DNA from: a virus
Strand: one strand, 5' to 3'
DNA: 64,000 bases
IMG/VR virus record: IMGVR_UViG_3300032235_000428
Location: 38,461-102,460 of that record
This document shows, piece by piece, positions 36,401 to 56,616 of the stretch. Each line of letters opens with the position of its first letter. Position 1 is the first letter of the stretch. The notes below the pieces were generated by a model. The model saw nothing but the letters and a program-made list of their open reading frames with translations, searched no databases and was not told the origin of the DNA. The translations under genes were made by a program, and so were the position numbers.

Positions 36401-39400
36401 ATTTTTATTTGTAGATCCCAATTGTACAAATCCGCCAGTACTACCAACACCTATAGGGAAAGTTGAAATTCCTATAAGATCATTAGAAATTTTTCCAACA
36501 TAAAATTTAGAATAGTCTTGGACAGGATATGATGTTGATCCAGTAGAAACTTTTATAGGAGTATTACCAGAGCTTGTATATGTAATCAGATCTCCAGTTT
36601 GTAATCCATGATCTCTTAAATATATGGACTGATATGGAATTATTTTTGAAGTTACTCCATAAGCAACATGAGAGAAAAATATTGTTGTCCCTATACCAAC
36701 TCCACTACCCTTACCTAAACTTTCAAGAGGATTGAAATAAATATCACTATTAATTTTATATTGAATTGAAGATGTATACCCAACATTAATAGTAAATTTC
36801 CTAGGAACTTCATACATGACAGATCCTTCACTGTGAGCAACTCCAGATGTTCCCCCATATGATCTTAATATTTTTATCTTAGATAATTCCTTATCTATTT
36901 CTAAAATCTGTATCTTTTCATTGTCTACTTTGTAAATATCATTTACTTGTACATTTGGATAATTTAAATTACCATAAACATCAATAAAAGTAGTAACTCC
37001 AGTAAATGTTTGGGCATTTAAATTTTTAGTTAGAATTAATTTACTTGTAAGTATACCAACAGAAAAACTATTGGATATATTTAACTCATAATTGTTTAAA
37101 TTATTAATGGTAATTACATCATTAGCAGACAAGTATGAAGGCACACTACATATTCCAAGTATTACTCCAGTGTTTGAATATGGTATGAATTGAACATTAC
37201 TTATTTTATAAGATGTACATGCTATAGATACAATATTTTTTCCAACTATTTCTGATACATTTGCAAATGCATTAGATCCCCCAGCATCACTATTATCAAA
37301 TACAACTTCATCATTTACTTTATAATTTTTTCCAGGTGAAACTATGGAAATATTTGTAATAGATCCTGGGAAAGTTGTATCAATTCTATTGTATTCTTTT
37401 GTATACTTATTTGGTTCTAATATAACATCATATCCACTATTTTTATTCAGTAATCCATAGTAATAAGTATTTCTTAACCATCCTGTTGAATTTATATTAA
37501 TTTTATCTTGATTTGAGTTTTGATCATAGTTAAAATCTATTATTTTAGAATTAAATTTATCACCTATGATATATGGGAACACTGGTTTTAAGAATGATCT
37601 GAAAGGACCATCAGATTCTTCTGTATTATTAATTGTTGAAAAATACGCATAAATTCCTTCTGGAAAATCTGGAGTTTTACAGTATCTTCCATTATATTCA
37701 TCCAAATCACCAGTTCCGTCATAAAAATAATCTTCAATAAAAAATCCAACTGGATATAGTGAAGGTCTTATTGGAGAATTGATGATTCTATATCCAGATT
37801 TCATTCTGGTTACAACTCCACCTTCTGGATCTGCATATCCATAAGGGCCATAAATTGGATTTCCATCATAGGCCCAACCTATTAATGGTGAATGGTATTT
37901 AATTGATGATGTATCATTTAAGGAATCTTCTCTGTAAATAGTTGTTCCATCAACACCAATTGAAGTTGAAAGTAAAGATTGTCTTAACTTTCTTGGTGCA
38001 TATGCATGACAATACTCTAATTCATATTTTTTATTGATCGCATTATAAATTATCCCATCATCATCTGTTATTTGATCTGTTGTTATAAGCCTCTCCACCA
38101 AGTTTATATTCCATGATTTTATATAAGTTTCAAATTTAACACCAAATCCAGATGATGAAACTCGTATTCTTGTGTTACTTTGAGTATAATTTGAACCAGA
38201 TTTACTAATAATTACATCAATAATTTTTCCATCACTAAGAATAGGTAGTAATTCTGCTCCAGAACCATCTCCTTCAACTATTAAATCTGGAATTGAATTA
38301 TATTCTAGTCCAACATTATTAATTAAAATACCAACTATTTTACCATTAGAAATAATTGGTGATATACTTGCATCCTTTCCACTTGAAACATACACTGATG
38401 GTTGTTTTCTATAATTAATAATTTCTTGGTCACCATACTGTTGTCCATAATTGCTTAAAGAAACTGATTCTATTCTTCCCCTAAAAATAGGTCTTATTTT
38501 AACTGAAGAATCTTGCCCAGAAAAAGTTATTATTCCTACTGGATTTTCAATTTTTACTGAAATTGGTAGATAATTTAACTCATGTACTCCAGATCCAATA
38601 GATATTAAATTACTGAAAATATTATTATCATAGTAATAATTTTCAGAAATGGATCCAACTCCTACTGGAGATAATTTAATAGTATCAACATCAATGACTT
38701 TTACATAATAATTTGTAGATGAAGAAAGACCTGATATTAAAGTCTCATTAGAATCATATGTAACTACTTCCTTTCCTTTATAACCATGGTCTTTTATTCT
38801 AATAATATCGGAATAAATGTTAACATGTTCTGGTAAGAAGAACACTCTTTTATTCTCATATCCAGATCCACTTTCTACGACATCGATAGAAGATATTATA
38901 TTTTTGGGGTCAAAAGTTGTAAATTTATGTACTCCAGATCCAAAAGATGTAATATTTACGGTATTTAATCCTGCAACAGCATTTTCATATGTTGAATATA
39001 GTTTTATATTTGATGCATCAGTTGGTATTGCATAATATACTGAATTATCAAATAATCCACCTACAGGAGTTTGATTATTTGAACTGTAAATTATTTTTTC
39101 AAATTTATTAAATCTATGGTAAGTTGTAAATCCTATGGTATTATTAGTTAAATCAATCAATCCAGATGTTGAGTATGCACCAAATTCAACTGAAGTGTAT
39201 ATTTTAGATACTTTACATTCTGCTATTGCACCAGACCCATTTCCACCAGAAATAGTTACTTTTGGTATACCATTAGTAAAGGAATAATTATTTTCTAGTA
39301 TTTCAATTCTTTTTAATGATCCATTAACATGACAAACACCAGTAGCACCTATCCCAGTAGTGTCTTCAATAGTTAAAATTGGTGGATTAATAACATCATA

Positions 39401-47752: not shown

Positions 47753-47904
47753 CAGTCAATTTCCTCCATTTGTATATCGTCTGGGTTAATCTTTTCGTTA
47801 TTGTAATACTTTAATGCCAGTTCATGAAGGGCATCAGCGGTTTCGTCATAATTTAAATTATCACGAAAAACTTCACCCTTATAAGTAACTCTAAACCTTT
47901 TCAT
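47752..47904 (-). CDS. Small protein of unknown function (50 aa)
   Basis: It reads MKRFRVTYKGEVFRDNLNYD, then ADALHELALKYYN and an acidic end (DIQMEEID). The ATG overlaps the stop of the glycosyltransferase gene (ATGA) and its own stop overlaps the next start the same way, so the three genes are translationally coupled. A longer frame from 48009 exists but lies inside the glycosyltransferase gene and is rejected. Confidence 0.75.
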   Translation of the reverse strand: MKRFRVTYKGEVFRDNLNYDETADALHELALKYYNNEKINPDDIQMEEID

Positions 47905-48671
47905 CAGATAACGCGAGTTTTTTCGTGACCAACTCTGATACGAGGATCGCACCAGGTTTCCATACCTGCCTCTTTTGCATCGAGACAGAACGAAACGTCT
48001 TCTCCGCACATATCTTGAACGTTACCAGATTCGAAGACTTGCATCTTAGGAGCAAACCATGGGTACTCTAGACGCTCAAAGACACCTTTGCGGATCATTA
48101 CCCAACCAAATCCAGTGTAATCCACTGTGAAGGGTTTACGACGCTTAGAGATGCTATCTACGGTCTCGTGGTTCATTACACCACCGTTTCTGCGGAAATC
48201 TTCTTCATCTAACCAGTGTGCAACGGAAGTGGTGTGACCATCTTCTGTAGCATACCATCCACAAGCGATTTCTTTTTCATCACCCTCTTCTGGAACTGCA
48301 AGATCGCACAGTTGCCAGAACTTTTCAGAGTTAAACACAATATCATTATCAATCCAGAGTTGATAATCATACTGAAGTTTTCCATCCCAAGGTACTTGAT
48401 TTGGACCACGAAGAACATTTGCACCTAAACACTTGCAACGTGCAAAGTTAACCATAGACGAGTAATCTTGAGAGATCTGAATGCTCATCTGGTTTTGTAC
48501 CATGTCAAAGCAAAGTTGTACAAAACTCTTGAGGAACGCATAAGAGCATCCACGACCAGGTAAGCAGAATACAATCGACTTACCTTTCATTCTTTCTTTA
48601 ATTGCATCATAGTCCCACTCTTCCTTCGGTTTCGTTGGAGCAGTGGCTTTAACAGTAAATCCTTTTGCCAT
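47904..48671 (-). CDS. GT-A-fold glycosyltransferase-like protein (255 aa)
   Basis: This is a predicted sugar transferase. After a short N-terminal extension come a GT-A opening (GKSIVFCLPGRGCSYAFLKS), a DND metal-binding triad at 108-110 (YQLWIDNDIVF), an acceptor-side motif DYTGFGWVMIRKGVFE, a GED at 223-225 and H249 near the end, as in DxD-dependent enzymes. It could glycosylate a virion protein or modified DNA; neither is shown. Base composition is higher in GC than the structural genes. It has its own TTGACA-17-TAAAAT promoter and is coupled to two small genes downstream. Confidence 0.75.
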   Translation of the reverse strand: MAKGFTVKATAPTKPKEEWDYDAIKERMKGKSIVFCLPGRGCSYAFLKSFVQLCFDMVQNQMSIQISQDYSSMVNFARCKCLGANVLRGPNQVPWDGKLQYDYQLWIDNDIVFNSEKFWQLCDLAVPEEGDEKEIACGWYATEDGHTTSVAHWLDEEDFRRNGGVMNHETVDSISKRRKPFTVDYTGFGWVMIRKGVFERLEYPWFAPKMQVFESGNVQDMCGEDVSFCLDAKEAGMETWCDPRIRVGHEKTRVI

Positions 48672-48915: not shown

Positions 48916-49078
48916 TATATATCATCGCTAGTAAAAATCCAAGGGGTAGAAAAACGATCTTTGGATATCGGATAACCCACCCTGCTAAAACTACTCTCCA
49001 AAAATTCCAATAAGGTCTTGGACGACCCTTATAACCATAAGCAGAGACGTTCATAGAGGAACTCGAAAAATTTTTCAT
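48896..49078 (-). CDS. Small membrane protein (60 aa)
   Basis: A basic N-terminus (YGYKGRPRPYWNFWRVV) precedes one hydrophobic helix, roughly residues 28-57, containing IRYPKIVFLPLGFLLAMIYN. The positive-inside rule places the N-terminus in the cytoplasm. It probably acts at the host inner or thylakoid membrane. No catalytic motif is seen. Confidence 0.7.
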   Translation of the reverse strand: MKNFSSSSMNVSAYGYKGRPRPYWNFWRVVLAGWVIRYPKIVFLPLGFLLAMIYNVVSSR

Positions 49079-49141
49079 AAACGTTTAAAAACAAAATCCT
49101 AGTAGTTTCTCGGAGACATATCCAAATGTAGTATACCTCAT

Positions 49142-49167
49142 CTATGGGAGTTATGGTAGTCCCATAG
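49142..49167 (-). promoter_or_regulatory. Inverted repeat overlapping a promoter start region (candidate operator)
   Basis: CTATGGGA and TCCCATAG are perfect 8-bp arms with a 10-base centre, beginning 3 bases downstream of a TATAAT -10 box. A further TATGGGAG half-site lies between the -10 and -35 boxes (49188-49195). The geometry fits a repressor operator or a 5' mRNA hairpin. Confidence 0.5.
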
Positions 49168-49169
49168 CG

Positions 49170-49198
49170 ATTATAGTACAGAAACCTTATGGGAGCAA
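49170..49198 (-). promoter_or_regulatory. Sigma70-type promoter upstream of the small membrane protein genes
   Basis: The minus strand has TTGCTC (49198-49193), 17 bases, then a perfect TATAAT (49175-49170). It could drive the 60-aa and 64-aa genes with a leader of about 90 bases. Confidence 0.55.
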
Positions 49199-49400
49199 AA
49201 ATTTTCTGGGGAAATTTTTTTATGAACATGGAATCACTCACTCGAATTGTCACCTCTGTAGGTTAGGGTAGTTAGGCATTTTAGCTAAGGGGGGCATCAC
49301 GCCCGCCGCCATCACGATACCGTTATACCGTATAACTGCTGTTCGCCACGCACGAATAGGGGTGCTAAGTATAAAGAACTCAGCACCCGCTAAGTGTTAA

Positions 49401-49571
49401 TCAGGGCAGACAACCGCTGGCGTCAAGCATACCAATGCTGAGAACATTGTTATACAAACCAACGTAAAACCTGCCGATTGATAACCCAAACTGTTCATCA
49501 TCTTTGCCCGCCTTAGTATCAACACCAAGGTAGAAGAATTCGATGAATTTGTGAGAAGTTGCGAATTTCAT
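49401..49571 (-). CDS. Small protein of unknown function (56 aa)
   Basis: It reads MKFATSHKFIEFFYLGVDT, then KDDEQFGLSIGRFYVGLY and ends LDASGCLP. No family recognised. Codon use matches the GC-richer block. The leader has an 8-bp hairpin and then a C/A-rich stretch without a Shine-Dalgarno sequence. The 147 bases downstream, to 49254, hold a GGGTGCT/AGCACCC hairpin (49360-49388) and no gene. Confidence 0.65.
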   Translation of the reverse strand: MKFATSHKFIEFFYLGVDTKAGKDDEQFGLSIGRFYVGLYNNVLSIGMLDASGCLP

Positions 49572-49596
49572 TGTTGTGGTGATGATGTTAACGAAG

Positions 49597-49615
49597 GGGG
49601 GAGATTGTCTCCCCC
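49597..49615 (-). other. Leader hairpin GGGGGAGA/TCTCCCCC
   Basis: This is a perfect 8-bp stem with a 3-base loop, 25 bases upstream of the 56-aa gene. It is one of a family of G-tract/C-tract hairpins in front of the small genes of this block. Confidence 0.6.
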
Positions 49616-49622
49616 GTTGTGA

Positions 49623-49862
49623 TCACATAGCGTCGTTGAATGCCCTCTCTTTAATGTACTCTAGAAGTGTATCCCATCGGCGGAGATCTGCCGATTGTAG
49701 TTTACCTTCCTGACACATGTAGCGATCGGATTCAATCAACGCATCACACATTAACTTAAGTTCGCGGGGGGAAACTTTCAGGTTAACGGTGCCATCATTG
49801 ATGAAATCATAGTGGGGGATTTCATCAATCTGCTGGCGGTCGGTGAAAGCGTAGGCGGTCAT
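49623..49862 (-). CDS. Unknown small protein (79 aa)
   Basis: It has a helical second half (KVSPRELKLMCDALIESDRY, then RRWDTLLEYIKERAF). No family recognised. It is preceded by a duplicated promoter/leader module that recurs before the 64-aa gene at 50651-50845. Confidence 0.7.
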   Translation of the reverse strand: MTAYAFTDRQQIDEIPHYDFINDGTVNLKVSPRELKLMCDALIESDRYMCQEGKLQSADLRRWDTLLEYIKERAFNDAM

Positions 49863-49863
49863 T

Positions 49864-49938
49864 TGGGGTGTCCCGTGTTGACTTTTAAATTCTACAGGGT
49901 GGGGGCACCCTATCGCGCCCCCGTTAACAATTGTTCAC
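49864..49938 (-). repeat. Intergenic promoter/leader module, copy 1
   Basis: Reading the minus strand, it runs GTGTGAAC, a GGGGGC/GCCCCC-type hairpin, CACCCTGTAGAATTTAAAAG, then TCAACACGGGACACCCC before the start codon. The second half is nearly identical to the copy at 50848-50925. TAGAAT may be a -10 box. Confidence 0.7.
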
Positions 49939-50198
49939 ACTCCAGAGAGGGCAGCGATGATACGATCCCGCTTGCGAATCTGATTAGTACGAATGAACCA
50001 CACGTCCCGCTTGCCTGTGGCATCGTTGCGGGTTGCGTCTAGAACGCCTGCAGTCTCAAGATCAACCATGAGGGCGTGAATCGTGCCCTTATGGCGGCGA
50101 GGATCCAAACCCATAGCCCGCACCAAGTCGCTGCAGGTCTGGGGGCCGTTCTGAATCAGGTGGGAGCGGACGGAAGCGCGGATGATGGATGCGAGCAT
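49935..50198 (-). CDS. Winged-helix-like DNA-binding protein (87 aa)
   Basis: The order of helices and the terminal hairpin fit a small winged helix-turn-helix. The parts are RASVRSHLIQNGPQTCSDLV (helix 1-2), RAMGLDPRRHKGTIHALMVD (turn and recognition helix), LETAGVLDATRND and KRDVWFIR (wing). A transcriptional regulator acting on phage or host promoters is the likely role; the palindromic repeats in this window are possible targets. The gene is notably GC-rich relative to the rest. Confidence 0.7.
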   Translation of the reverse strand: MLASIIRASVRSHLIQNGPQTCSDLVRAMGLDPRRHKGTIHALMVDLETAGVLDATRNDATGKRDVWFIRTNQIRKRDRIIAALSGV

Positions 50199-50215
50199 GA
50201 TCTTAGAAAGGTGAG

Positions 50216-50233
50216 GCGGGATCTCTGTCCCGC
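50216..50233 (-). other. Leader hairpin GCGGGA/TCCCGC
   Basis: A 6-bp stem with a 6-base loop lies 17 bases upstream of the winged-helix gene. A possible -10 (TAGGAT at about 50244-50249) precedes it. Confidence 0.5.
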
Positions 50234-50260
50234 TTGAATGTATCCTAGACGGTCGGGGGG

Positions 50261-50428
50261 TCAGACCGTGATCAGATCGGGCGTTTCGTTACAATCCGAA
50301 ATAGTATAAACATCTAGCAGCAATTGCATCATTTCATCAGTAGTTAGAATTGTGCAATTCTTTTCAACCAACTCAGCGATTCTTTCAGCGGGAAGTTTAA
50401 ACCGAAGGCGGGAAGGATAGTGAGTCAT
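50261..50428 (-). CDS. Unknown small protein (55 aa)
   Basis: It reads MTHYPSRLRFKLPAERIAEL, then TDEMMQLLLDVYTISDC. A short helical protein with no recognised family. Its ATG overlaps the stop of the preceding 55-aa gene (ATGA), so the pair is translationally coupled. Confidence 0.7.
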   Translation of the reverse strand: MTHYPSRLRFKLPAERIAELVEKNCTILTTDEMMQLLLDVYTISDCNETPDLITV

Positions 50429-50592
50429 TTGTTGGAATTGTTGGTGTTGAAAGTAACAACCTCAGCAGGAGATCCACAGGATTTGTAGAATTCCACCATA
50501 CGGTTTGCCTCATCAATTGTGGGGAAAGTTTGCGTCCGCCACTCACACTGATTGTAGGGAGTTTGGAAGCGGATAGTGATTCCGAGTGCCAT
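50425..50592 (-). CDS. Unknown small protein (55 aa), coupled pair
   Basis: It reads MALGITIRFQTPYNQCEWRT, then IDEANRMVEFYKSCGS. The beta-then-helix pattern recalls small phage accessory proteins; no function is visible. The leader has a GGGGGAG/CTCCCCC hairpin and a C/A-rich stretch lacking a Shine-Dalgarno sequence. Confidence 0.7.
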   Translation of the reverse strand: MALGITIRFQTPYNQCEWRTQTFPTIDEANRMVEFYKSCGSPAEVVTFNTNNSNK

Positions 50593-50620
50593 GATGTTAG
50601 GGTGTTGGTGGTGAAGAATT

Positions 50621-50639
50621 GGGGGAGTTTTTCTCCCCC
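50621..50639 (-). other. Leader hairpin GGGGGAG/CTCCCCC
   Basis: A 7-bp perfect stem with a 5-base loop, 28 bases upstream of the coupled pair and downstream of the 64-aa gene stop. Confidence 0.6.
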
Positions 50640-50650
50640 TTAAGTGTTAA

Positions 50651-50845
50651 TCAGAACAGCAGATCTGCGATCCCTTGAATCACATCACCATACTCTCCCA
50701 CAATGTTACCCGCACCGTCGCGGATGTAAGCGTAGGAGTCACTTTCCTGATGCATCGAAAAACAGAGATCAGTGGCACGATCATAGTCGGTCACAGTCTC
50801 ACCCTCACCAAGGGCAGGGCAGGCAACGTAGAAGGTGTTGATCAT
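50651..50845 (-). CDS. Unknown small acidic protein (64 aa)
   Basis: It reads MINTFYVACPALGEGETVTD, then YAYIRDGAGNIVGEYGDVIQ. The DGAGNIVGEY segment looks like a beta-hairpin. No family recognised. It is preceded by copy 2 of the promoter/leader module. Confidence 0.7.
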   Translation of the reverse strand: MINTFYVACPALGEGETVTDYDRATDLCFSMHQESDSYAYIRDGAGNIVGEYGDVIQGIADLLF

Positions 50846-50847
50846 GG

Positions 50848-50925
50848 GGGTGTCCCGTGTTGACTTTTAAATTCTACAGGGTGGAAGGGCAGCACCCGCT
50901 GCCCCTGTTACAAAGGTTCACACTA
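50848..50925 (-). repeat. Intergenic promoter/leader module, copy 2
   Basis: The minus strand carries GTGTGAAC, TTTGTAACA, a GGGCAGC/GCTGCCC hairpin, CCACCCTGTAGAATTTAAAA and then GTCAACACGGGACACCCC. The start-proximal 37 bases are essentially identical to copy 1 at 49864-49938. Confidence 0.7.
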
Positions 50926-51532
50926 GACCTTTGTGTATCCTACGATACGCGACCCATGTGATCGCTTGCACTTGTGCCGCTGAATGATAAGATCCCGACA
51001 CCTTTGAGATAATTTTAGCGGCGTCACGGTAGGAGTCTTGAATGTGCTGGAAAGTTTTAATACTTAAAGTGGGCACCTCTTTAAGATTAGAAACTGTGCC
51101 GTTCCAGATGTTGTAAGCATGTCCATCAATGCAGGGGGTGTCGCTATCACCATCCGATGCAATGCAAAGGAAGAATGCAATAGTTTTGTTGCCACGCAAA
51201 ACTTTAACAATCTGATCGCGATTCAGTTGGCAATCGAGAATAGTTGCCGCTTTGTCTTTGTTGTTAGAATAGGTGGAGACTTTCACCTGAGAATAATCAA
51301 TCTCCGCTGCCCATGCTCTCAGCATTGTTTCAGCATCGATGATGTTAGATTCCCATTTGTTGTTAGGTGAAAGTGCAGCGATGATGCCTGCCACGATGTC
51401 AGAATGCACACCGTACTTTTCACCTAAAGTATAACAAACCTGGAAGGCATTGTTGTACCATTGCAGACCTACCTGCCGATCGTAGGCATTGCTCTGGAAG
51501 TAGGTTGCCAGGATGGAATCGGTGTGTGCCAT
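50918..51532 (-). CDS. Phage protein with HhH DNA-glycosylase-like pattern (204 aa)
   Basis: It belongs to a phage family I know by ALSPNNKWESN (53-63) followed by a KA pair and C(I/V)D-x-HA. The segment GNKTIAFFLCI then CIDGHAYNIW (K116, D136) parallels GRKTA...VDTH of endonuclease III, where Lys and Asp are catalytic. The spacing is 20 here and 18 there. This suggests a helix-hairpin-helix glycosylase-like fold, possibly acting on DNA base damage or host DNA. No iron-sulfur cysteines are present. The leader ends in ACCAACCCC and lacks a Shine-Dalgarno sequence. Confidence 0.65.
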   Translation of the reverse strand: MAHTDSILATYFQSNAYDRQVGLQWYNNAFQVCYTLGEKYGVHSDIVAGIIAALSPNNKWESNIIDAETMLRAWAAEIDYSQVKVSTYSNNKDKAATILDCQLNRDQIVKVLRGNKTIAFFLCIASDGDSDTPCIDGHAYNIWNGTVSNLKEVPTLSIKTFQHIQDSYRDAAKIISKVSGSYHSAAQVQAITWVAYRRIHKGLV

Positions 51533-51709
51533 GGGGTTGGTTGGCGATGTGCAAATCCTACAGCATCGTGGGCACCCTGCAACGGGTTTTATGATCAGTC
51601 TCGCTTATGGGTCTCATCAAAAATACTTATGAGCCAGGTCTTGACTTTTAGGGGCACTGCCCCTAACCTAGAGGGCGGGAGGGGAGGGAAGCATAGATTA
51701 CTTAAGTAT

Positions 51710-51733
51710 AAAAAAACCCCGCTAGTTGCGGGG
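51710..51733 (-). terminator. Rho-independent terminator after the 62-aa gene
   Basis: On the minus strand CCCCGC/GCGGGG forms a 6-bp GC stem with a 5-base loop, followed by seven T. It sits 13 bases after the stop of the gene ending at 51746. Confidence 0.85.
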
Positions 51734-51745
51734 TGTGGTATAATC

Positions 51746-51934
51746 TTAGAACTCTACGATCCAGTCTGGATCTTTGTTAAGATTTACCCAGAAATGGTTT
51801 TTACCATTTACACTGGTGAGAAAAACTTTATCACCTTTGTGTTGCTCTATGATACATTCATCAATTCCATCCATCATGTTAGCAAATCGGTTCTTTGCTT
51901 TCTTAGATACAGGCGTGACGAATGCGGTTTCCAT
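51746..51934 (-). CDS. Small conserved-looking phage protein (62 aa)
   Basis: I choose the ATG giving METAFVTPVSKKAKNRFANM rather than a TTG five codons earlier. The body has ECIIEQHKGDKVFLTSVNG and ends WVNLNKDPDWIVEF, a mixed basic/beta pattern seen in cyanophage small genes. Function unknown. It is the last gene before a strong terminator. Confidence 0.7.
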   Translation of the reverse strand: METAFVTPVSKKAKNRFANMMDGIDECIIEQHKGDKVFLTSVNGKNHFWVNLNKDPDWIVEF

Positions 51935-51938
51935 AGTA

Positions 51939-52070
51939 TCAGAAATCAATGAGTTCTAGAGTAGGTTCACCAGCATCATCGCTGCTAGTGATAGTTTCAA
52001 GAATTTGCAGGATTTCTTCGCCAGTTTGACCTTTGCGAAGCATCGAAAGCATGAGCGAACGGTTTTCCAT
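51939..52070 (-). CDS. Small helical protein (43 aa)
   Basis: The reading frame extends upstream into palindromic repeat DNA, but the natural start is the ATG giving MENRSLMLSMLRKGQTGEEI. It ends SSDDAGEPTLELIDF. It resembles a short helical accessory peptide common in these phages; no function is known. It lies four bases upstream of the 62-aa gene, and both end at the terminator. Confidence 0.65.
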   Translation of the reverse strand: MENRSLMLSMLRKGQTGEEILQILETITSSDDAGEPTLELIDF

Positions 52071-52108
52071 GATAAAGAAAAGAATTTCACGTAATGGTTT
52101 GTGTGTGT

Positions 52109-52166
52109 ATCTCGTCGAGATTTTATGTATATCTCGACTAGATTTAATTGATACTCTAGTCGAGAT
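52109..52166. repeat. Three copies of the ATCTCGTCGAGAT-type quasi-palindrome
   Basis: Copies are at 52109-52121 (ATCTCGTCGAGAT), 52131-52143 (ATCTCGACTAGAT) and 52154-52166 (CTCTAGTCGAGAT), with centre spacings of 22-23 bases (about two helical turns). They lie upstream of the 43-aa gene. Confidence 0.8.
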
Positions 52167-52321
52167 CAATCATAATCGAAATCAGTTGAACTTTCTGAAT
52201 AATCATCATACTGTTCAACTTGGTTTAGCATTTGCCTTGCCTCAGGGGAAAGTTCCTCATAAGGTTGGCATTCATCAACTAGATCAAAGGGGGAAAAGTC
52301 TTCGGTTTCGAAAAATTCCAT
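52166..52321 (-). CDS. Small acidic protein (51 aa)
   Basis: It reads MEFFETEDFSPFDLVDECQP, then EELSPEARQMLNQVEQYDDY, and is strongly acidic throughout. Acidic mini-proteins in phages often mimic DNA or bind host proteins, but nothing specific can be assigned. A leader hairpin and a C/A-rich stretch precede it. Its stop touches the palindrome cluster. Confidence 0.65.
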   Translation of the reverse strand: MEFFETEDFSPFDLVDECQPYEELSPEARQMLNQVEQYDDYSESSTDFDYD

Positions 52322-52343
52322 GGTTCTTTGTGTTGATTGTGAA

Positions 52344-52365
52344 GGGGAGGGGTTGCCTCCTCCCC
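52344..52365 (-). other. Leader hairpin GGGGAGG/CCTCCCC
   Basis: A 7-bp stem with an 8-base loop, 22 bases before the 51-aa gene. Same family as the hairpins at 49597 and 50621. Confidence 0.55.
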
Positions 52366-52377
52366 CGTATTGTACTA

Positions 52378-52605
52378 TCAGGCGGCAGTCACTGCAAGCA
52401 GTTGCTCAGTCTTGATAGCATTGTTTACAAAACGACCCACGGATTGTTGCTGAGAGATGACGCTGCTCAGTTGAGTCACAAACTGCTCAACATCTTGCAC
52501 ACCGTAGGTATAATCACGACCACCGTTGAAGGTGATGGTCACTTTACCATCTTGCACATCAGAGATGTTTTCGATGGCGCTGGAAGTAAAAGTGAACTGA
52601 GACAT
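52378..52605 (-). CDS. KTSC-domain-like protein (75 aa)
   Basis: The sequence SSAIENISDVQDGKVTITF, then GGRDYTYGVQDVEQF, S-x-G-x-F (SVGRFVN) and NAIKT fits the KTSC domain (PF13619) found at the C-terminus of some lysyl-tRNA synthetases and alone in phages. Its function is unknown. I choose the ATG at 52605 (MSQFTFTSSA), not the longer upstream frame. The promoter is TTGACA-17-TAATCT with a GCGGG-type leader hairpin. Confidence 0.75.
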   Translation of the reverse strand: MSQFTFTSSAIENISDVQDGKVTITFNGGRDYTYGVQDVEQFVTQLSSVISQQQSVGRFVNNAIKTEQLLAVTAA

Positions 52606-52646
52606 AATGAATTCAAAAATGAATAAGTGGAAAGTGAAGTGTTTTG

Positions 52647-52668
52647 AGCGGGATGCTTCACCCCCGCT
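52647..52668 (-). other. Leader hairpin AGCGGG/CCCGCT
   Basis: A 6-bp stem with a 10-base loop, located between the promoter at 52679 and the KTSC-like gene. Confidence 0.5.
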
Positions 52669-52678
52669 TGTTGTTCTT

Positions 52679-52723
52679 AGATTAAGCGATCTCTGGCAGC
52701 ATGTCAAGTGGTATGTGCCAGTT
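52679..52723 (-). promoter_or_regulatory. Sigma70-type promoter with AACTGGCACA upstream box (KTSC-like gene)
   Basis: The minus strand has AACTGGCACA (52723-52714), 6 bases, TTGACA (52707-52702), 17 bases and TAATCT (52684-52679). Confidence 0.7.
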
Positions 52724-52812
52724 GTAAAAGTGGTTAGGATGGGAAGCACTCAGTAGAGTTTTATGGTATCAATGACAATCAAGATACCAACCATCCTGTA
52801 ATAATTTATACT

Positions 52813-52995
52813 TTAGGCATTTTCTAGAAGTTCAGGGTTATACTCCTTCACTTCGTTAATCAATTCCTCATCAGTATAAGATGCAAGATTGTCCTGCAAA
52901 GTTTCATAAACAAAGCATTCCATTGTCTTCATGTCCATTGAATCTAGGATCTGCTGAGCATAATCAGCAATCAGAGAATCACGATCAATTTGCAT
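52813..52995 (-). CDS. Unknown small acidic helical protein (60 aa)
   Basis: It reads MQIDRDSLIADYAQQILDSM, then ECFVYETLQDNLASYTDEEL, a predicted all-helical acidic protein. Similar proteins recur in cyanophage accessory regions, and no function is known. Its start overlaps the end of the 46-aa gene by 11 bases. Confidence 0.7.
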   Translation of the reverse strand: MQIDRDSLIADYAQQILDSMDMKTMECFVYETLQDNLASYTDEELINEVKEYNPELLENA

Positions 52996-53125
52996 TAGGA
53001 ACCTCTTGGATTACTTCAGTTACAGTGATGATTTGTTTGTCTTCGTTGATGTAATTAGTTTGGATCATGTTAGGTCCAACTTGAACCTGACCGATCATGT
53101 AAGCAGCAGCAAGAAGTTCAAACAT
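52985..53125 (-). CDS. Unknown small protein (46 aa)
   Basis: It reads MFELLAAAYMIGQVQVGPNM, then NYINEDKQIITVTEVIQEVP. A short hydrophobic start followed by beta-type sequence; a membrane peptide is possible but the segment is short. It overlaps the following gene, which supports translation. Confidence 0.65.
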   Translation of the reverse strand: MFELLAAAYMIGQVQVGPNMIQTNYINEDKQIITVTEVIQEVPNAN

Positions 53126-53128
53126 GAT

Positions 53129-53269
53129 TCAATAATGATGACGGGACATTACAGAGTTGGGATCATTGTACCAATCAGAATCCTCATAATCTTTGTATTC
53201 AGATTCTTTATAATCTTCCTCTGCCATGTTGGGCATAGGAACATCATCGATCCAGATCATTTCAGGCAT
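53129..53269 (-). CDS. Small acidic protein (46 aa)
   Basis: A longer frame runs to 53434, but the natural start is the ATG giving MPEMIWIDDVPMPNMAEEDY. The rest is D/E/Y-rich (YKESEYKDYEDSDWY) with a basic end (MSRHHY). No family recognised. The leader TTCACCACTGAACCACC is shared with the 59-aa gene upstream. Confidence 0.65.
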   Translation of the reverse strand: MPEMIWIDDVPMPNMAEEDYKESEYKDYEDSDWYNDPNSVMSRHHY

Positions 53270-53339
53270 TGGTGGTTCAGTGGTGAACGAAGTAATCTTA
53301 GAGGATGGTGGGGAGCATTGCTGCCCCCCTTGTGCCAGT

Positions 53340-53519
53340 TTAGATGGCGGATTTTTGATTGCGTGACCACAGAGCAAGTCGCATGGTGCTAGCTTTGCGG
53401 GCAGCAGTTTCTTTGCGACCGTTTGCAATTGCAATATTGATCAATACTTTGCGATCAATACGCTTCACCTTTGCACTCAGAATGTCGCGGGAAAGTTGCA
53501 AAATTTCTTGGTGTTTCAT
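53340..53519 (-). CDS. Small basic protein (59 aa)
   Basis: It reads MKHQEILQLSRDILSAKVKR, then ANGRKETAARKASTMRLALW. Basic and helical, possibly nucleic-acid binding; no motif decides. Its leader carries TTCACCACTGAACCACC directly before the ATG region. An AACTGGCACAAGG box overlaps its stop and serves the next promoter. Confidence 0.65.
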   Translation of the reverse strand: MKHQEILQLSRDILSAKVKRIDRKVLINIAIANGRKETAARKASTMRLALWSRNQKSAI

Positions 53520-53543
53520 GATGGGTGGTTCAGTGGTGAACTA

Positions 53544-53675
53544 TCAAATCATACCACGGCGACCGAGATCTGCCCATACATGGGACGGTGCTGCAGCTGG
53601 CACACCAGTGGCGGTGTTGTTCTTCACCCACACCAGTTGGCGGGTGGCGATGTCAGAGGCGCAAACCAAAGTCAT
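53544..53675 (-). CDS. Small protein of unknown function (43 aa)
   Basis: It reads MTLVCASDIATRQLVWVKNN, then TGVPAAAPSHVWADLGRRGM. No family recognised. The last codons (GTGGTATGATTTGA) double as a -10-like sequence for the next gene, and the same string appears in the promoter of this gene itself. Confidence 0.6.
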   Translation of the reverse strand: MTLVCASDIATRQLVWVKNNTATGVPAAAPSHVWADLGRRGMI

Positions 53676-53712
53676 GGGGATCTCCCGTGTTGACCCTCAA
53701 ATCATACCACAC
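53676..53712 (-). promoter_or_regulatory. Promoter/leader with GGTATGATTT and GTCAACACGGGA elements
   Basis: The minus strand reads GTGTGGTATGATTTGAGG, then GTCAACACGGGAGATCCCC before the ATG. The leader matches the modules at 49864 and 50848. TATGAT is a likely -10 box; no clear -35 is seen. Confidence 0.5.
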
Positions 53713-53744
53713 CCTCAGCGGCATCTGTGGCATGTTACAAAACA

Positions 53745-53775
53745 TAAAAAAAGACCTGGGCACCACCCCAGGTCT
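53745..53775 (-). terminator. Rho-independent terminator
   Basis: AGACCTGGG/CCCAGGTCT forms a 9-bp stem with a 6-base loop, followed by a run of T on the minus strand. It ends the transcript carrying tRNA-Leu and the 46-aa gene. Confidence 0.9.
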
Positions 53776-53858
53776 GTTAACCCTATTCTCTATCTCACTA
53801 TGAACCAAGGAATATGAACGCAAACAGTGTAACTTTTAGGGCAAACACCTTCCCCTTA

Positions 53859-53999
53859 TCACATAAACTCTGCCATATAATAGTCTACTGTGATCTCAAG
53901 TTTAGATGCTTCTTCCTCCATTGCAAGCATAAATGCATTGTCAATATCCAAATCGTCGTTATCATGAGAGCAGAACATATCAAGCGTGGATTCGTGCAT
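53859..53999 (-). CDS. Small acidic protein downstream of tRNA-Leu (46 aa)
   Basis: It reads MHESTLDMFCSHDNDDLDID, then FMLAMEEEASKLEITVDYYM. Acidic, with a helix of LAMEEEASKLEITV type; function unknown. It is the only protein gene between the tRNA and the terminator. Confidence 0.65.
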   Translation of the reverse strand: MHESTLDMFCSHDNDDLDIDNAFMLAMEEEASKLEITVDYYMAEFM

Positions 54000-54059
54000 G
54001 AGTGCCTCTAGAAGGAGAGTTTGGACCTCTTATGGTACATTATACCATTGAAGAGGTAA

Positions 54060-54143
54060 TAGGGCGAGGGAGACTTGAACTCCCACGGGCATAAGCCCAA
54101 CAGATTTTAAGTCTGGTGTGTCTACCGATTCCACCACCGCCCC
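54060..54143 (-). tRNA. tRNA-Leu (anticodon UAA)
   Basis: The minus strand gives a type II tRNA. It begins GGGGCGGTGG with the typical tRNA-Leu D arm (GGAATCGGTAGACAC). The anticodon stem CAGA/TCTG holds loop CTTAAAA (anticodon TAA). There is a variable arm, then T arm GGGAG TTCAAGT CTCCC and acceptor end TCGCCCT. The acceptor has two G-U pairs. CCA is not encoded. It reads UUA codons, which are frequent in the AT-rich structural genes. Confidence 0.93.
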
Positions 54144-54156
54144 GTGGTATGATCAT

Positions 54157-54185
54157 ATTATAGCATATGATCGAGATGATGTCAC
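54157..54185 (-). promoter_or_regulatory. tRNA-Leu promoter (GTGACA-17-TATAAT, extended -10)
   Basis: The minus strand has GTGACA (54185-54180), 17 bases and TGCTATAAT with the -10 at 54162-54157, 14 bases upstream of the tRNA. A palindrome copy begins 2 bases upstream of the -35 box. Confidence 0.8.
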
Positions 54186-54187
54186 GT

Positions 54188-54233
54188 ATCTAGTCGAGAT
54201 TGATTTGATACGTGACGCGCATCTAGTCGAGAT
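54188..54233. repeat. Two copies of the ATCTAGTCGAGAT quasi-palindrome
   Basis: Identical copies at 54188-54200 and 54221-54233 have start spacing of 33 bases (about three helical turns). They lie directly upstream of the tRNA-Leu promoter; the second overlaps the stop of the 73-aa gene. Confidence 0.85.
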
Positions 54234-54444
54234 CTGTGTATGGTTTCATACCAATTCGATCTGCGACACACATAATCAGTTCTCCTAGAACTTCATCATC
54301 AACTTCACCAAGTTTATCGGTGATAATTCCACCAATGTTAGTATGGAGGAAATCTAACCATGCACCAGTCTCAACAAGTTCTTCAGCAACTTCTTCAACG
54401 AGTGCAGCAGCAATTCTGTTGATTGAATTGTTTGAGAGTGCCAT
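54223..54444 (-). CDS. Unknown small acidic helical protein (73 aa)
   Basis: It reads MALSNNSINRIAAALVEEVA, then NIGGIITDKLGEVDDEVLGE and CVADRIGMKPYTDLD. All-helical and acidic; no family recognised. The leader (CAGTTCAAACAAACAC before the ATG) lacks a Shine-Dalgarno sequence, and TATACT about 30 bases upstream may be a -10 box. Confidence 0.7.
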   Translation of the reverse strand: MALSNNSINRIAAALVEEVAEELVETGAWLDFLHTNIGGIITDKLGEVDDEVLGELIMCVADRIGMKPYTDLD

Positions 54445-54508
54445 GTGTTTGTTTGAACTGAATGAAGTATAAGGCAGTTTAGCGTCTTGCCTAGGACCAG
54501 TGTGACAG

Positions 54509-54970
54509 TTATGCTGCTGTCACATAGTTGGGAATTTCAATACGCTCTACAGGACCCCAACCGATCTTGTATGCTTTCCAGTTACCATTGAGATCATACA
54601 GGTAAGAATACTCTTCAGCAGAGTTACCTGATACAAACTCATCGAAACTGGTGTGCTGGACAGAGACTTCTTCACCACGTTCAGTGTGATAAAGTGGTTG
54701 AGCATCACGGGTTGGGGACATAACCCAACTACCATCAGGGTTCTCTACAATGTTACCATCTGCATCACGTACTGCTGCAGTCTCCCACAGATAAGTTGTA
54801 CGCAGAGATGACATTGAACCACCATCGATGAGTTCCATAACATCATCGCGGTTCTGATAATGCTCTACCAGAGTGCGACCATTGTTCTCTACATAACCAT
54901 CATAGTGGCAATAAACACTGACCACGGTGTGATCAGGGAGTTCATAACCGATGCGTGAGCGAGTTCCCAT
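54509..54970 (-). CDS. Phage protein of the TRSRIG...YCHYDGY type (153 aa)
   Basis: I start it at the ATG giving MGTRSRIGYELPDHTVVSVY, not the longer frame. The pattern TRSRIG ... V-S-V-Y-CHYDGYVENNG and ELIDGGSMSSL recurs in many phage proteins annotated as unknown. Its TRSRIG start and the H-x-DGY motif are the family marks. The function is not established. The promoter is TTGACA-17-TAAATT with an AACTGGCACA box, and a GGGGGT/ACCCCC hairpin overlaps the -35. Confidence 0.75.
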   Translation of the reverse strand: MGTRSRIGYELPDHTVVSVYCHYDGYVENNGRTLVEHYQNRDDVMELIDGGSMSSLRTTYLWETAAVRDADGNIVENPDGSWVMSPTRDAQPLYHTERGEEVSVQHTSFDEFVSGNSAEEYSYLYDLNGNWKAYKIGWGPVERIEIPNYVTAA

Positions 54971-54995
54971 GGTGTTGTGAGTGGTGAACGAAAGT

Positions 54996-55041
54996 AATTT
55001 AACCGATTGTGGGGGTCTTGTCAACCCCCTTGTGCCAGTTC
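54996..55041 (-). promoter_or_regulatory. Sigma70-type promoter with AACTGGCACA box (153-aa gene)
   Basis: The minus strand has GAACTGGCACA (55041-55031), 6 bases, TTGACA (55024-55019), 17 bases and TAAATT (55001-54996), 25 bases before the ATG. Confidence 0.8.
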
Positions 55042-55243
55042 AAATATTGGACATGGCAACCAAGCGGTTACGGATATCGTACACCTCCATGTCGTCCATG
55101 TCAAGGGCATCCATATCCACAGGAGCGAACTCCTCCAGATTAATAGTTCCATTTGCATAGATGGGTGCAAAATACAACTCATCACCATCCTCTTGAGAAA
55201 GAGTGTATACACAACCGTGATTGGTGGAAGTAACAAAAATCAT
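55040..55243 (-). CDS. Unknown acidic protein (67 aa)
   Basis: It reads MIFVTSTNHGCVYTLSQEDG, then ELYFAPIYANGTINLEEFAP and a D/M-rich helix (DMDALDMDDMEVYDIRNRL). The beta-hairpin plus acidic helix plan is common among cyanophage small genes. Its promoter carries the AACTGGCACA box. Confidence 0.7.
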   Translation of the reverse strand: MIFVTSTNHGCVYTLSQEDGDELYFAPIYANGTINLEEFAPVDMDALDMDDMEVYDIRNRLVAMSNI

Positions 55244-55267
55244 TGGTCGAATTGCGTTTGCCCCACA

Positions 55268-55312
55268 AATATAACCGTTGGGATCTCTCCTGTCAACTGG
55301 TCCTTGTGCCAG
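55268..55312 (-). promoter_or_regulatory. Sigma70-type promoter with AACTGGCACA box (67-aa gene)
   Basis: The minus strand has AACTGGCACA (ending near 55305), 8 bases, TTGACA (55296-55291), 17 bases and TATATT (55273-55268), 24 bases before the ATG. Confidence 0.8.
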
Positions 55313-55362
55313 TTCTCTTAGTGTCCTTATAGTTGATTATAAGAGGTTCTTATGGTATAATG

Positions 55363-55533
55363 CTACCAATTGTAATCCAAGTCTTCCACATAAGATTTGA
55401 CAGTCTCTGAGGGATTAAGATCAAACAACTTCTCCCAGTTGATGTTACGAGGATCAAAATCTCCGAGAACGTCGAGTTCCAGAGTGACCCTATACTTGTG
55501 CTTCTGTGCTTCGTGATAGACGGTGTTACCCAT
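55363..55533 (-). CDS. Unknown small protein (56 aa)
   Basis: It reads MGNTVYHEAQKHKYRVTLEL, then DVLGDFDPRNINWEKLF and ends VEDLDYNW. No family recognised. It is the first gene of the GC-richer block and has a perfect-spacing sigma70 promoter facing left, with palindrome copies upstream. Confidence 0.7.
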   Translation of the reverse strand: MGNTVYHEAQKHKYRVTLELDVLGDFDPRNINWEKLFDLNPSETVKSYVEDLDYNW

Positions 55534-55559
55534 GAGAACTTTATGTGTGAACTGTGTTT

Positions 55560-55588
55560 ATTCTACATGACAGTGCATAAGATGTCAA
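55560..55588 (-). promoter_or_regulatory. Leftward sigma70-type promoter (TTGACA-17-TAGAAT)
   Basis: TTGACA at 55588-55583 and TAGAAT at 55565-55560 are separated by 17 bases, 27 bases before the 56-aa gene. The first palindrome of the array begins 10 bases upstream of the -35. Confidence 0.85.
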
Positions 55589-55598
55589 GGGATGCACG

Positions 55599-55786
55599 AT
55601 CTTGTCGAGATCACATCATGTATCTAGTCGAGATGTGTATTATAATGATACTGTTATATTATGATATCATGACATGCACATCTCGTCGAGATCTTATGAT
55701 AGTATCGTCGAGATCTTATGATATAATGATATCGTTATATGATTGTGTAATCTCGTCGAGATATAACCGTGCAGTCTCGTCGAGAT
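55599..55786. repeat. Array of six ATCTCGTCGAGAT-type quasi-palindromes
   Basis: Copies at 55599, 55622, 55680, 55704 (11 of 13 bases), 55750 and 55774 share the TCGAGAT half, and most have the mirrored ATCTC half. The pairs have starts 23-24 bases apart (55599/55622, 55680/55704 and 55750/55774). The AT-rich spacers also repeat (ATCTTATGATA; AATGATATCGTTATAT). No reading frame crosses the array plausibly. Confidence 0.85.
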
Positions 55787-55794
55787 CCTGGGAG

Positions 55795-55823
55795 TTGACA
55801 AACGGGGGCGTGTGTGGTAAAAT
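55795..55823 (+). promoter_or_regulatory. Rightward sigma70-type promoter P1 (TTGACA-17-TAAAAT)
   Basis: TTGACA at 55795-55800, a 17-base spacer and TAAAAT at 55818-55823 on the plus strand. It begins 8 bases after the last palindrome. No rightward gene follows. Confidence 0.8.
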
Positions 55824-55854
55824 GCCGCGTCCTTATATTTTTATGGCGGGGGTC

Positions 55855-55883
55855 TTGACATTTTTTCGCGGTTGTGCTATAAT
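55855..55883 (+). promoter_or_regulatory. Rightward consensus sigma70 promoter P2 (TTGACA-17-TATAAT)
   Basis: A perfect -35, a 17-base spacer and a perfect -10 preceded by TGC (extended -10). It is the strongest promoter-like sequence I see in the window, and it faces away from the 56-aa gene into gene-free DNA. Confidence 0.88.
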
Positions 55884-56067
55884 ACGCAGTCTAAGATCAC
55901 AAGGATCTGGCACGATTATAAGGAATTATAAGAGATATAAGAGAGATTATAAGAGAGATATAAACTCTACAATACTATCATATAACACTACTGTAATACA
56001 ATACTATAAGAGAAACAAAACACACATATATGTTTTTTAATACATTTTTTAATATAAAAAACAATAA
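55884..56067 (+). ncRNA. Candidate noncoding transcript downstream of P1/P2
   Basis: No plus-strand gene is present. The sequence starts with AGATC-ACAAG-GATCT, then has tandem ATTATAAGAGA-type repeats, and ends with the palindrome ACATATATGT followed by six T (56024-56039). That could be a weak terminator. A short RNA of about 140-150 bases, or antisense reading into the convergent genes beyond 56068, is inferred purely from the promoters. Confidence 0.4.
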
Positions 56068-56616
56068 TTAAACACTATATTGGTTATTTTCCTCATAACT
56101 ATCATAACCACAGTGACCTCTTACTTGCTCACTATCAACACTATCATCAATCATTAGATCATTCATTGTAAGAGTATTAGGATCATAGTCTTTTACTGAA
56201 TTAAAAGTAAAAACACTTTGTTCATCATTAACATCATACTCTTCATATGCTTTCTTTACATAATCAAGATATTGATCAAATAACTCTTTATCAGTCATAG
56301 ATGTAAATTGATGATTATGATCAATAACCTTTTTAATTAACTTACATCTTGTTTCCCATGAGATCTTTTCAGTTTTTAGTGTATTGAACTTATCTCTATC
56401 AGTTAGACTATTATCCTCTACAACACTTTTAATATAAGCAATATCTTTCTTTACCATCATATCACATTGATGGCAATATGATATTTTAATCTCATCTAAT
56501 TGATTTTGCATATGAATTAGATACTCACGAATTAGAACTGATTCTCTTTCTTTTGAGAGATCAAACATAATATCATTAGTTAAATCATCAACAATTTTAA
56601 GTCTATCTAATTTCAT
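56068..56616 (-). CDS. Unknown helical protein (182 aa)
   Basis: Largely alpha-helical and charged. Notable parts are SYCHQCDMMVKKDIAYIKSV (C-x-x-C, a possible single zinc half-site) and an acidic C-terminal third (DVNDEQSVFTF, then NDLMIDDSVDSEQV). No family recognised. It is the last gene of the AT-rich accessory block and runs convergently toward the rightward promoters. Confidence 0.7.
   Translation of the reverse strand: MKLDRLKIVDDLTNDIMFDLSKERESVLIREYLIHMQNQLDEIKISYCHQCDMMVKKDIAYIKSVVEDNSLTDRDKFNTLKTEKISWETRCKLIKKVIDHNHQFTSMTDKELFDQYLDYVKKAYEEYDVNDEQSVFTFNSVKDYDPNTLTMNDLMIDDSVDSEQVRGHCGYDSYEENNQYSV

Follow-up and report, generated by a model that had tools for sequence, protein, structure and literature searches.

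Features of the locus

The window analysed here is the whole 64,000-nucleotide stretch, comprising bases 38461–102460 of a 102,460-bp IMG/VR virus record, and the element in question is a promoter-led module, a candidate replication origin, that comprises the promoters P1 and P2, a leader, a box slot and an A+T-rich block. The window belongs to a T4-like cyanophage (Kyanoviridae), as its conserved 255-amino-acid (aa) open reading frame (ORF; 47904–48671) matches cyanophage records; matches occur in >100 records, nearly all of Synechococcus or Prochlorococcus phages, and in isolates this ORF lies near the baseplate genes gp25, gp6 and gp7. The features of the module and of the DNA directly upstream are as follows.

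55599–55786, no strand: six 13-bp palindromes ATCTCGTCGAGAT or near variants, upstream of P1 (55599–55611, 55622–55634, 55680–55692, 55702–55714, 55750–55762 and 55774–55786), from a repeat search
55795–55823, + strand: promoter P1, TTGACAAACGGGGGCGTGTGTGGTAAAAT, sigma70-type, 11/12, 17-bp spacer
55855–55883, + strand: promoter P2, TTGACATTTTTTCGCGGTTGTGCTATAAT, consensus sigma70, 12/12, 17-bp spacer, extended −10 (TG before the −10)
55892–55935, + strand: conserved initial transcribed sequence TAAGATCACAAGGATCTGG.., with TAAGATCACAAG at 55892–55903; presumed start of a primer RNA
55915–55960, + strand: tandem (AT)TATAAGAGA leader repeats (repeat family D4)
55981–55998, no strand: imperfect inverted repeat TATAACACTACTGTAATA, from direct reading, in the slot that holds DnaA or other boxes in relatives
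56017–56060, no strand: A+T-rich block CACACATATATGTTTTTTAATACATTTTTTAATATAAAAAA, a candidate DNA unwinding element

The initial annotation had described P1 as close to perfect and P2 as perfect with an extended −10, both pointing rightward, among protein genes that all point leftward with none downstream, and this description holds. The plausible protein genes on both sides of the promoters lie on the − strand, whereas the + strand past P2 offers only short ORFs that relatives do not share, none of them being conserved. The sole long + strand ORF (55498–56040, 180 aa), which overlaps the promoters, is not open in the closest relatives and was rejected as a gene. The tandem TATAAGAG repeats noted earlier are likewise present (55927–55959). 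A perfect promoter match is weak evidence by itself, since chance alone would give 0.30 exact TTGACA-N15..18-TATAAT sites per window, and 28/100 shuffles contain one; the promoters are taken as real because the module is conserved, and not because of the consensus match alone.

Conservation of the module in cyanophages

A protein-anchored search of IMG/VR with the 56-aa ORF directly left of the module (55363–55533) gave 30 loci, 21 of them distinct. A right-facing promoter of 17-bp spacing, equivalent to P2 and followed by (T)AAGATCACAAG or a near variant, stands in the same place in 20 of the 21, the sole miss (L027) being a short contig that breaks off ahead of the module. This count is not circular, because the loci were not selected by the motif. 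P1 is kept in the closest relatives only (L005/L006 and L007) and is absent from L009–L012. BLAST of the window against the loci reveals two conserved islands in an otherwise variable gap, one at 55830–55927 (P2 and the transcript start) and the other at 56011–56060 (the A+T-rich block). At least 119 viral stretches match the pattern TTGACA-N25..33-TAAGATCACAAG; 99 of the pattern matches listed are distinct, and the module is present in all but a handful of chance coding matches. The 182-aa ORF to the right of the module has no relative in the IMG/VR scan and was useless as a search handle.

Among isolates, the module occupies unannotated gaps of S-SRM01, S-SM2, Syn30, S-CAM9, Syn9, P-SSM2, Bellamy, SynMITS9220M01, S-SCSM1, P-TIM68 and DSL-LC03, where its annotated neighbours are hypothetical proteins; in four of them (Syn9, Syn30, S-SRM01 and P-SSM2), the leader is different and the assignment is based on layout. 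The module lies near 58.1 kb in S-SM2, 13.1 kb in Syn30, 52.6 kb in Syn9, 57.9 kb in P-TIM68 and 65.9 kb in P-SSM2. It was not found in the inspected gaps of S-SSM7 and ACG-2014f. The full promoter-plus-leader match occurs as a single copy both in the window and in a 246-kb relative (G001). In another cyanophage clade (L016, L021, L027 and L033), the corresponding gap holds up to 3–4 copies of TCTAATCACGAATGAACTTT or variants, 0.2–0.5 kb upstream of the 56-aa ORF, and this repeat is distinct from the other repeats described here. In S-CAM9 (L159, ∼45.0–45.5 kb), a long run of GCGCAGG/GCACGC-rich repeats lies directly upstream of the module.

The order of the parts is constant, the promoter being followed by a leader unit TAAGATCACAAGRYCTSAGCACATTTAWAAG (repeated 1–5 times in relatives), a slot containing boxes at regular intervals and a CATATATGTTTTTTAATACATTTTTTAAT-type A+T-rich block. 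An imperfect repeat TATAACA-N4-TGTAATA in the slot is common to the window, L005, L007 and L012. The A+T-rich block retains 83–95% identity over 36–47 bp in distant relatives (e.g. L015, L016, L021, L032 and L033). The lowest duplex stability of the window's module falls within the lowest 0.35% of window positions; across P-SSM2, S-SRM01 and the window the block ranks in the lowest 0.13–0.35%, and in S-SM2 it is among the genome's two least stable 60-mers. The palindrome with a T-run near 56030 reported in the initial annotation is present (ACATATATGTTTTTT, 56023–56036), but it has no G-C stem, was not called as an intrinsic terminator and belongs to the conserved A+T-rich block. In 25/77 relatives, the right end of the module carries a terminator-like hairpin in the orientation of the convergent gene.

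A predicted non-coding transcript

As P2, its 17-bp spacing and the initial transcribed sequence are all conserved, a + strand non-coding transcript is probably made, with a start site placed by its distance to the −10. To this extent the earlier proposal of orphan promoters for a non-coding RNA stands, although a structured regulatory RNA is unlikely. A trans-acting RNA (e.g. one acting on host factors or mRNAs) would require P2 to make an abundant RNA of repeated TAAGATCACAAG..CACATTTATAAG units, with the downstream boxes regulating or ending it. The strong conserved promoter, the conserved transcript start, the repetition of the unit inside the predicted RNA and the absence of a conserved ORF would all suit such a product, which we nevertheless consider unlikely: folding is weak and uneven (mean z of −1.5 across 60 loci, to which the inverted boxes contribute, and −1.65 for the window), most of the sequence past the first unit is variable, and the DnaA boxes and the A+T-rich block are left unexplained. 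The conserved RNA structure that the initial annotation suggested looking for in relatives is not borne out, since the hairpin AGATC/GATCT at the RNA 5′ end is kept in 4/77 relatives and was rejected as a conserved element, no conserved secondary structure was found, and a search of Rfam gave no family match, only sub-threshold microRNA models. In the passages searched, the P-HM2 RNA-seq paper (PMC5082946) gave no intergenic detail.

Antisense control of the convergent right-hand genes, as also proposed initially, appears very improbable. The transcript would enter 56068–56616, which is coded on the other strand, and terminator prediction gave no strong + strand site short of 56068; however, relatives carry different genes at the right-hand position while the module persists, and in many of them the terminator-like hairpin separates the A+T-rich block from the right-hand gene.

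DnaA boxes and other boxes in the slot

The DnaA box of most cyanobacteria has the sequence TTTTCCACA (PMC4674748), and such boxes form the largest box class of the module. Among the pattern matches listed, 86 copies occur in 82 module loci × 780 nt versus 0.75 in base shuffles, and a DnaA-box cluster is present in 31 of these 82 relatives as well as in several isolates. The boxes are typically ordered > > < (two forward, one reversed), with a spacing of 21 or 42 bp and then ∼13 bp, the direct pair being spaced at whole helical turns. Genome-wide, DnaA boxes are rare and concentrated at the module, which holds 2/3 of the copies in S-SM2, 3/6 in Syn30, 2/4 in Syn9, 7/10 in DSL-LC03, 2/4 in P-TIM68 and 1/1 in S-SCSM1. 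The seven boxes of DSL-LC03 (L242, 80123–80579) lie within 460 bp and flank the module on either side; five precede the promoter, at the position of the palindrome array in other phages. No phage-encoded DnaA C-terminal domain was found in the nine genomes searched (the control for this search was positive in 10/14 named genomes), which implies that host DnaA would be used.

In other lineages the same slot carries TTCTCAA boxes ∼23 and 20 bp apart, and a further slot type combines a GATACGAATTC palindrome with AATAATTATCA. In these other classes the boxes stand at fixed spacing and always before the A+T-rich block.

Palindromes upstream of the promoters

The six 13-bp palindromes upstream of P1 were left out of the initial annotation. 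An independent scan for ATCTCGTCGAGAT pairs found at least 119 viral stretches, and the spacings in the arrays peak, among the matches listed, at 22–24, 31–33 and 42 bp, indicating helical phasing. A first test for the leader motif beside the palindrome arrays gave 5/124 among the matches listed and proved over-strict, as leaders are variable (TAAACTTGCATAAG, TTAGCTCACAAG). With promoter plus A+T-rich block in place of the leader motif, 41 of the 97 listed arrays with enough flank lie upstream of a 17-bp-spaced promoter facing an A+T-rich block, versus 2.5% of random places. In P-SSM2, every copy of ATCTCGTCGAGAT in the genome lies directly upstream of the module. A scan of 84,980 prokaryote genomes gave 34 ATCTCGTCGAGAT pairs; as none is in a record titled cyanobacterial, the array is unlikely to be a host operator. 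The palindromes probably bind a phage-linked, and probably phage-encoded, protein.

The window carries two more ATCTCGTCGAGAT clusters in its accessory region (52109–52166 and 54188–54233), the second directly upstream of a GTGACA-17-TATAAT promoter that faces a tRNA-Leu gene (anticodon TAA; 54060–54143, − strand). The tRNA gene has a strong promoter-like site of its own at 54185–54157.

The occurrence of identical palindromes upstream of these other promoters, together with the presence of boxes near the promoter in all classes, would be compatible with a regulatory function, in which the palindromes and all boxes, those for DnaA included, would act as operators tuning the promoter or titrating host DnaA and other factors, while the transcript is incidental or shields the early region. 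We regard this as quite improbable: three box classes have their boxes >35 bp downstream of the start, in every case ahead of the A+T-rich block, and the exchange of DnaA, TTCTCAA and GATACGAATTC boxes in one slot would be odd for a single circuit.

A proposed transcript-primed replication origin

As box arrays of a protein-binding type, the DnaA boxes above all, adjoin a conserved A+T-rich block, we favour with moderate confidence the interpretation that the locus is a transcript-primed (R-loop), cis-acting early replication origin that works like oriF and oriG of phage T4, the short non-coding transcript being likely its primer. From the sequence we infer transcription, R-loop formation, priming, DnaA binding and origin activity in the following manner. 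Early in infection, the unmodified host RNA polymerase with sigma70 would start at P2 (and P1) and make a short non-coding RNA rightward, across leader repeats and box slot and on into the A+T-rich block. There the RNA could remain hybridised in an R-loop and prime the leading strand, and the strand it displaces would take up the helicase-primase, in the manner of T4 oriF/oriG. Proteins that help to open or regulate the origin would bind to the box arrays, namely host DnaA in the TTTTCCACA class and probably a phage-encoded protein at the ATCTCGTCGAGAT palindromes of the window phage.

A promoter that transcribes into the origin, a feature of oriF/oriG, is found here by sequence and conservation, whereas their MotA-dependent middle-mode promoter is not, the −35 being the consensus sigma70 TTGACA; the module is hence described as working like oriF/oriG and not as a member of that class. 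Cyanomyoviruses retain the replisome and recombination genes of T4 but not motA, and their early transcription is thought to start at host sigma70 promoters (PMC2984593), so a sigma70 promoter feeding an A+T-rich block is the expected form of an origin in these phages.

Several observations weigh against an origin. The window's own module is devoid of TTTTCCACA, and no DnaA box occurs at the module in Bellamy, SynMITS9220M01, S-CAM9, P-SSM2, S-SRM01 or G001. The stability of the A+T-rich block is not exceptional in Syn30, S-CAM9 and Syn9. No precedent for DnaA boxes at a T4-type origin was found in the literature searched. In seven genomes, the GC skew at third codon positions (GC3 skew) shows no origin-type minimum at the module and the cumulative skew does not turn there as a bidirectional origin would predict, while in most of the seven the coding-orientation skew is lower, not higher, over the ∼45–60 kb downstream; GC skew was thus not supportive as proof of an origin. 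The lower downstream skew may reflect the late-gene block. Much of the replication of T4-like phages proceeds by recombination, and the GC-skew criterion may be inapplicable to phages that replicate mostly in this way. The skew nonetheless counts as a prediction of the origin interpretation that failed.

A broader proposal, which we put forward only tentatively, is that T4-like cyanophages could share one modular early origin, in which the sigma70 primer promoter and the melting block are constant and the cassette that binds the initiator has been exchanged many times, its versions being host DnaA boxes, phase-spaced ATCTCGTCGAGAT palindromes, TTCTCAATAA arrays and GATACGAATTC palindromes. If true, this would be a T4-type R-loop origin that captured host DnaA, and other initiators in other lineages. 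A literature search (subscription journals outside its scope) found no description of the module, nor any defined cis-acting origin for T4-like cyanophages; all that a review (PMC2984593) mentions is one theta origin, predicted for Syn9. With its ∼250–450 bp and its presence in cultured isolates, the compact conserved candidate makes the origin question directly testable. If phages do employ DnaA, the host replication machinery would influence when their replication begins, with a T4-type origin borrowing the host initiator.

Surroundings of the module

The region 49000–55900 has a G+C content of ∼0.41–0.51 and a slightly positive GC skew within a genome of 27–38% G+C, and carries many small ORFs, several with their own TTGACA-17-TATAAT-like promoter upstream. 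This block is absent between the 56-aa and 255-aa ORFs in more distant relatives. A third right-facing promoter-like site (55333–55361, TTGATT-17-TATAAT with TG) would run antisense into the 56-aa ORF. None of the neighbouring ORFs matches a photosystem protein in Pfam. Further away, a single ORF of 3,707 aa (30401–41524), adjoining a gp6-like ORF, stands where other cyanophages have their very long baseplate-wedge-initiator gene.

Comparison with known systems

The primary origin of phage T7 consists of the tandem promoters phi1.1A/phi1.1B and an A+T-rich region, a layout resembling that of tandem P1 and P2 ahead of an A+T-rich stretch; the module differs in its presumed use of host rather than phage RNA polymerase and in its box arrays, and the replisomes are unrelated. 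DnaA-dependent origins include plasmid P1 oriR, and the phased repeat arrays of the module are like those of iteron plasmids. In many relatives the likeness extends to cyanobacterial oriC (PMC4674748), through TTTTCCACA boxes (about three, ordered) beside an A+T-rich region. Unlike these origins, the module has no dnaA/dnaN or rep gene alongside, possesses a strong promoter and a conserved leader, and in the window copy is without DnaA boxes. The antisense RNA CfrI of cyanophage S-PM2 (PMC2984593), like the transcript predicted here, is a non-coding RNA of a T4-like cyanophage, but it lies opposite psbA and a homing endonuclease gene, an arrangement not encountered at the module, which is intergenic, has other neighbours and has no psbA beside it.

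The T4 origins oriF (ori(uvsY)) and oriG (ori(34)) come from the same phage superfamily, with its T4 replisome and recombination genes. The module departs from them in having a host sigma70 −35/−10 promoter in place of a MotA middle promoter, conserved leader repeats, an insulated intergenic position, and DnaA or other phased box arrays between the promoter and the A+T-rich block. DnaA boxes beside a sigma70 promoter and an A+T-rich block are an addition that T4 lacks.
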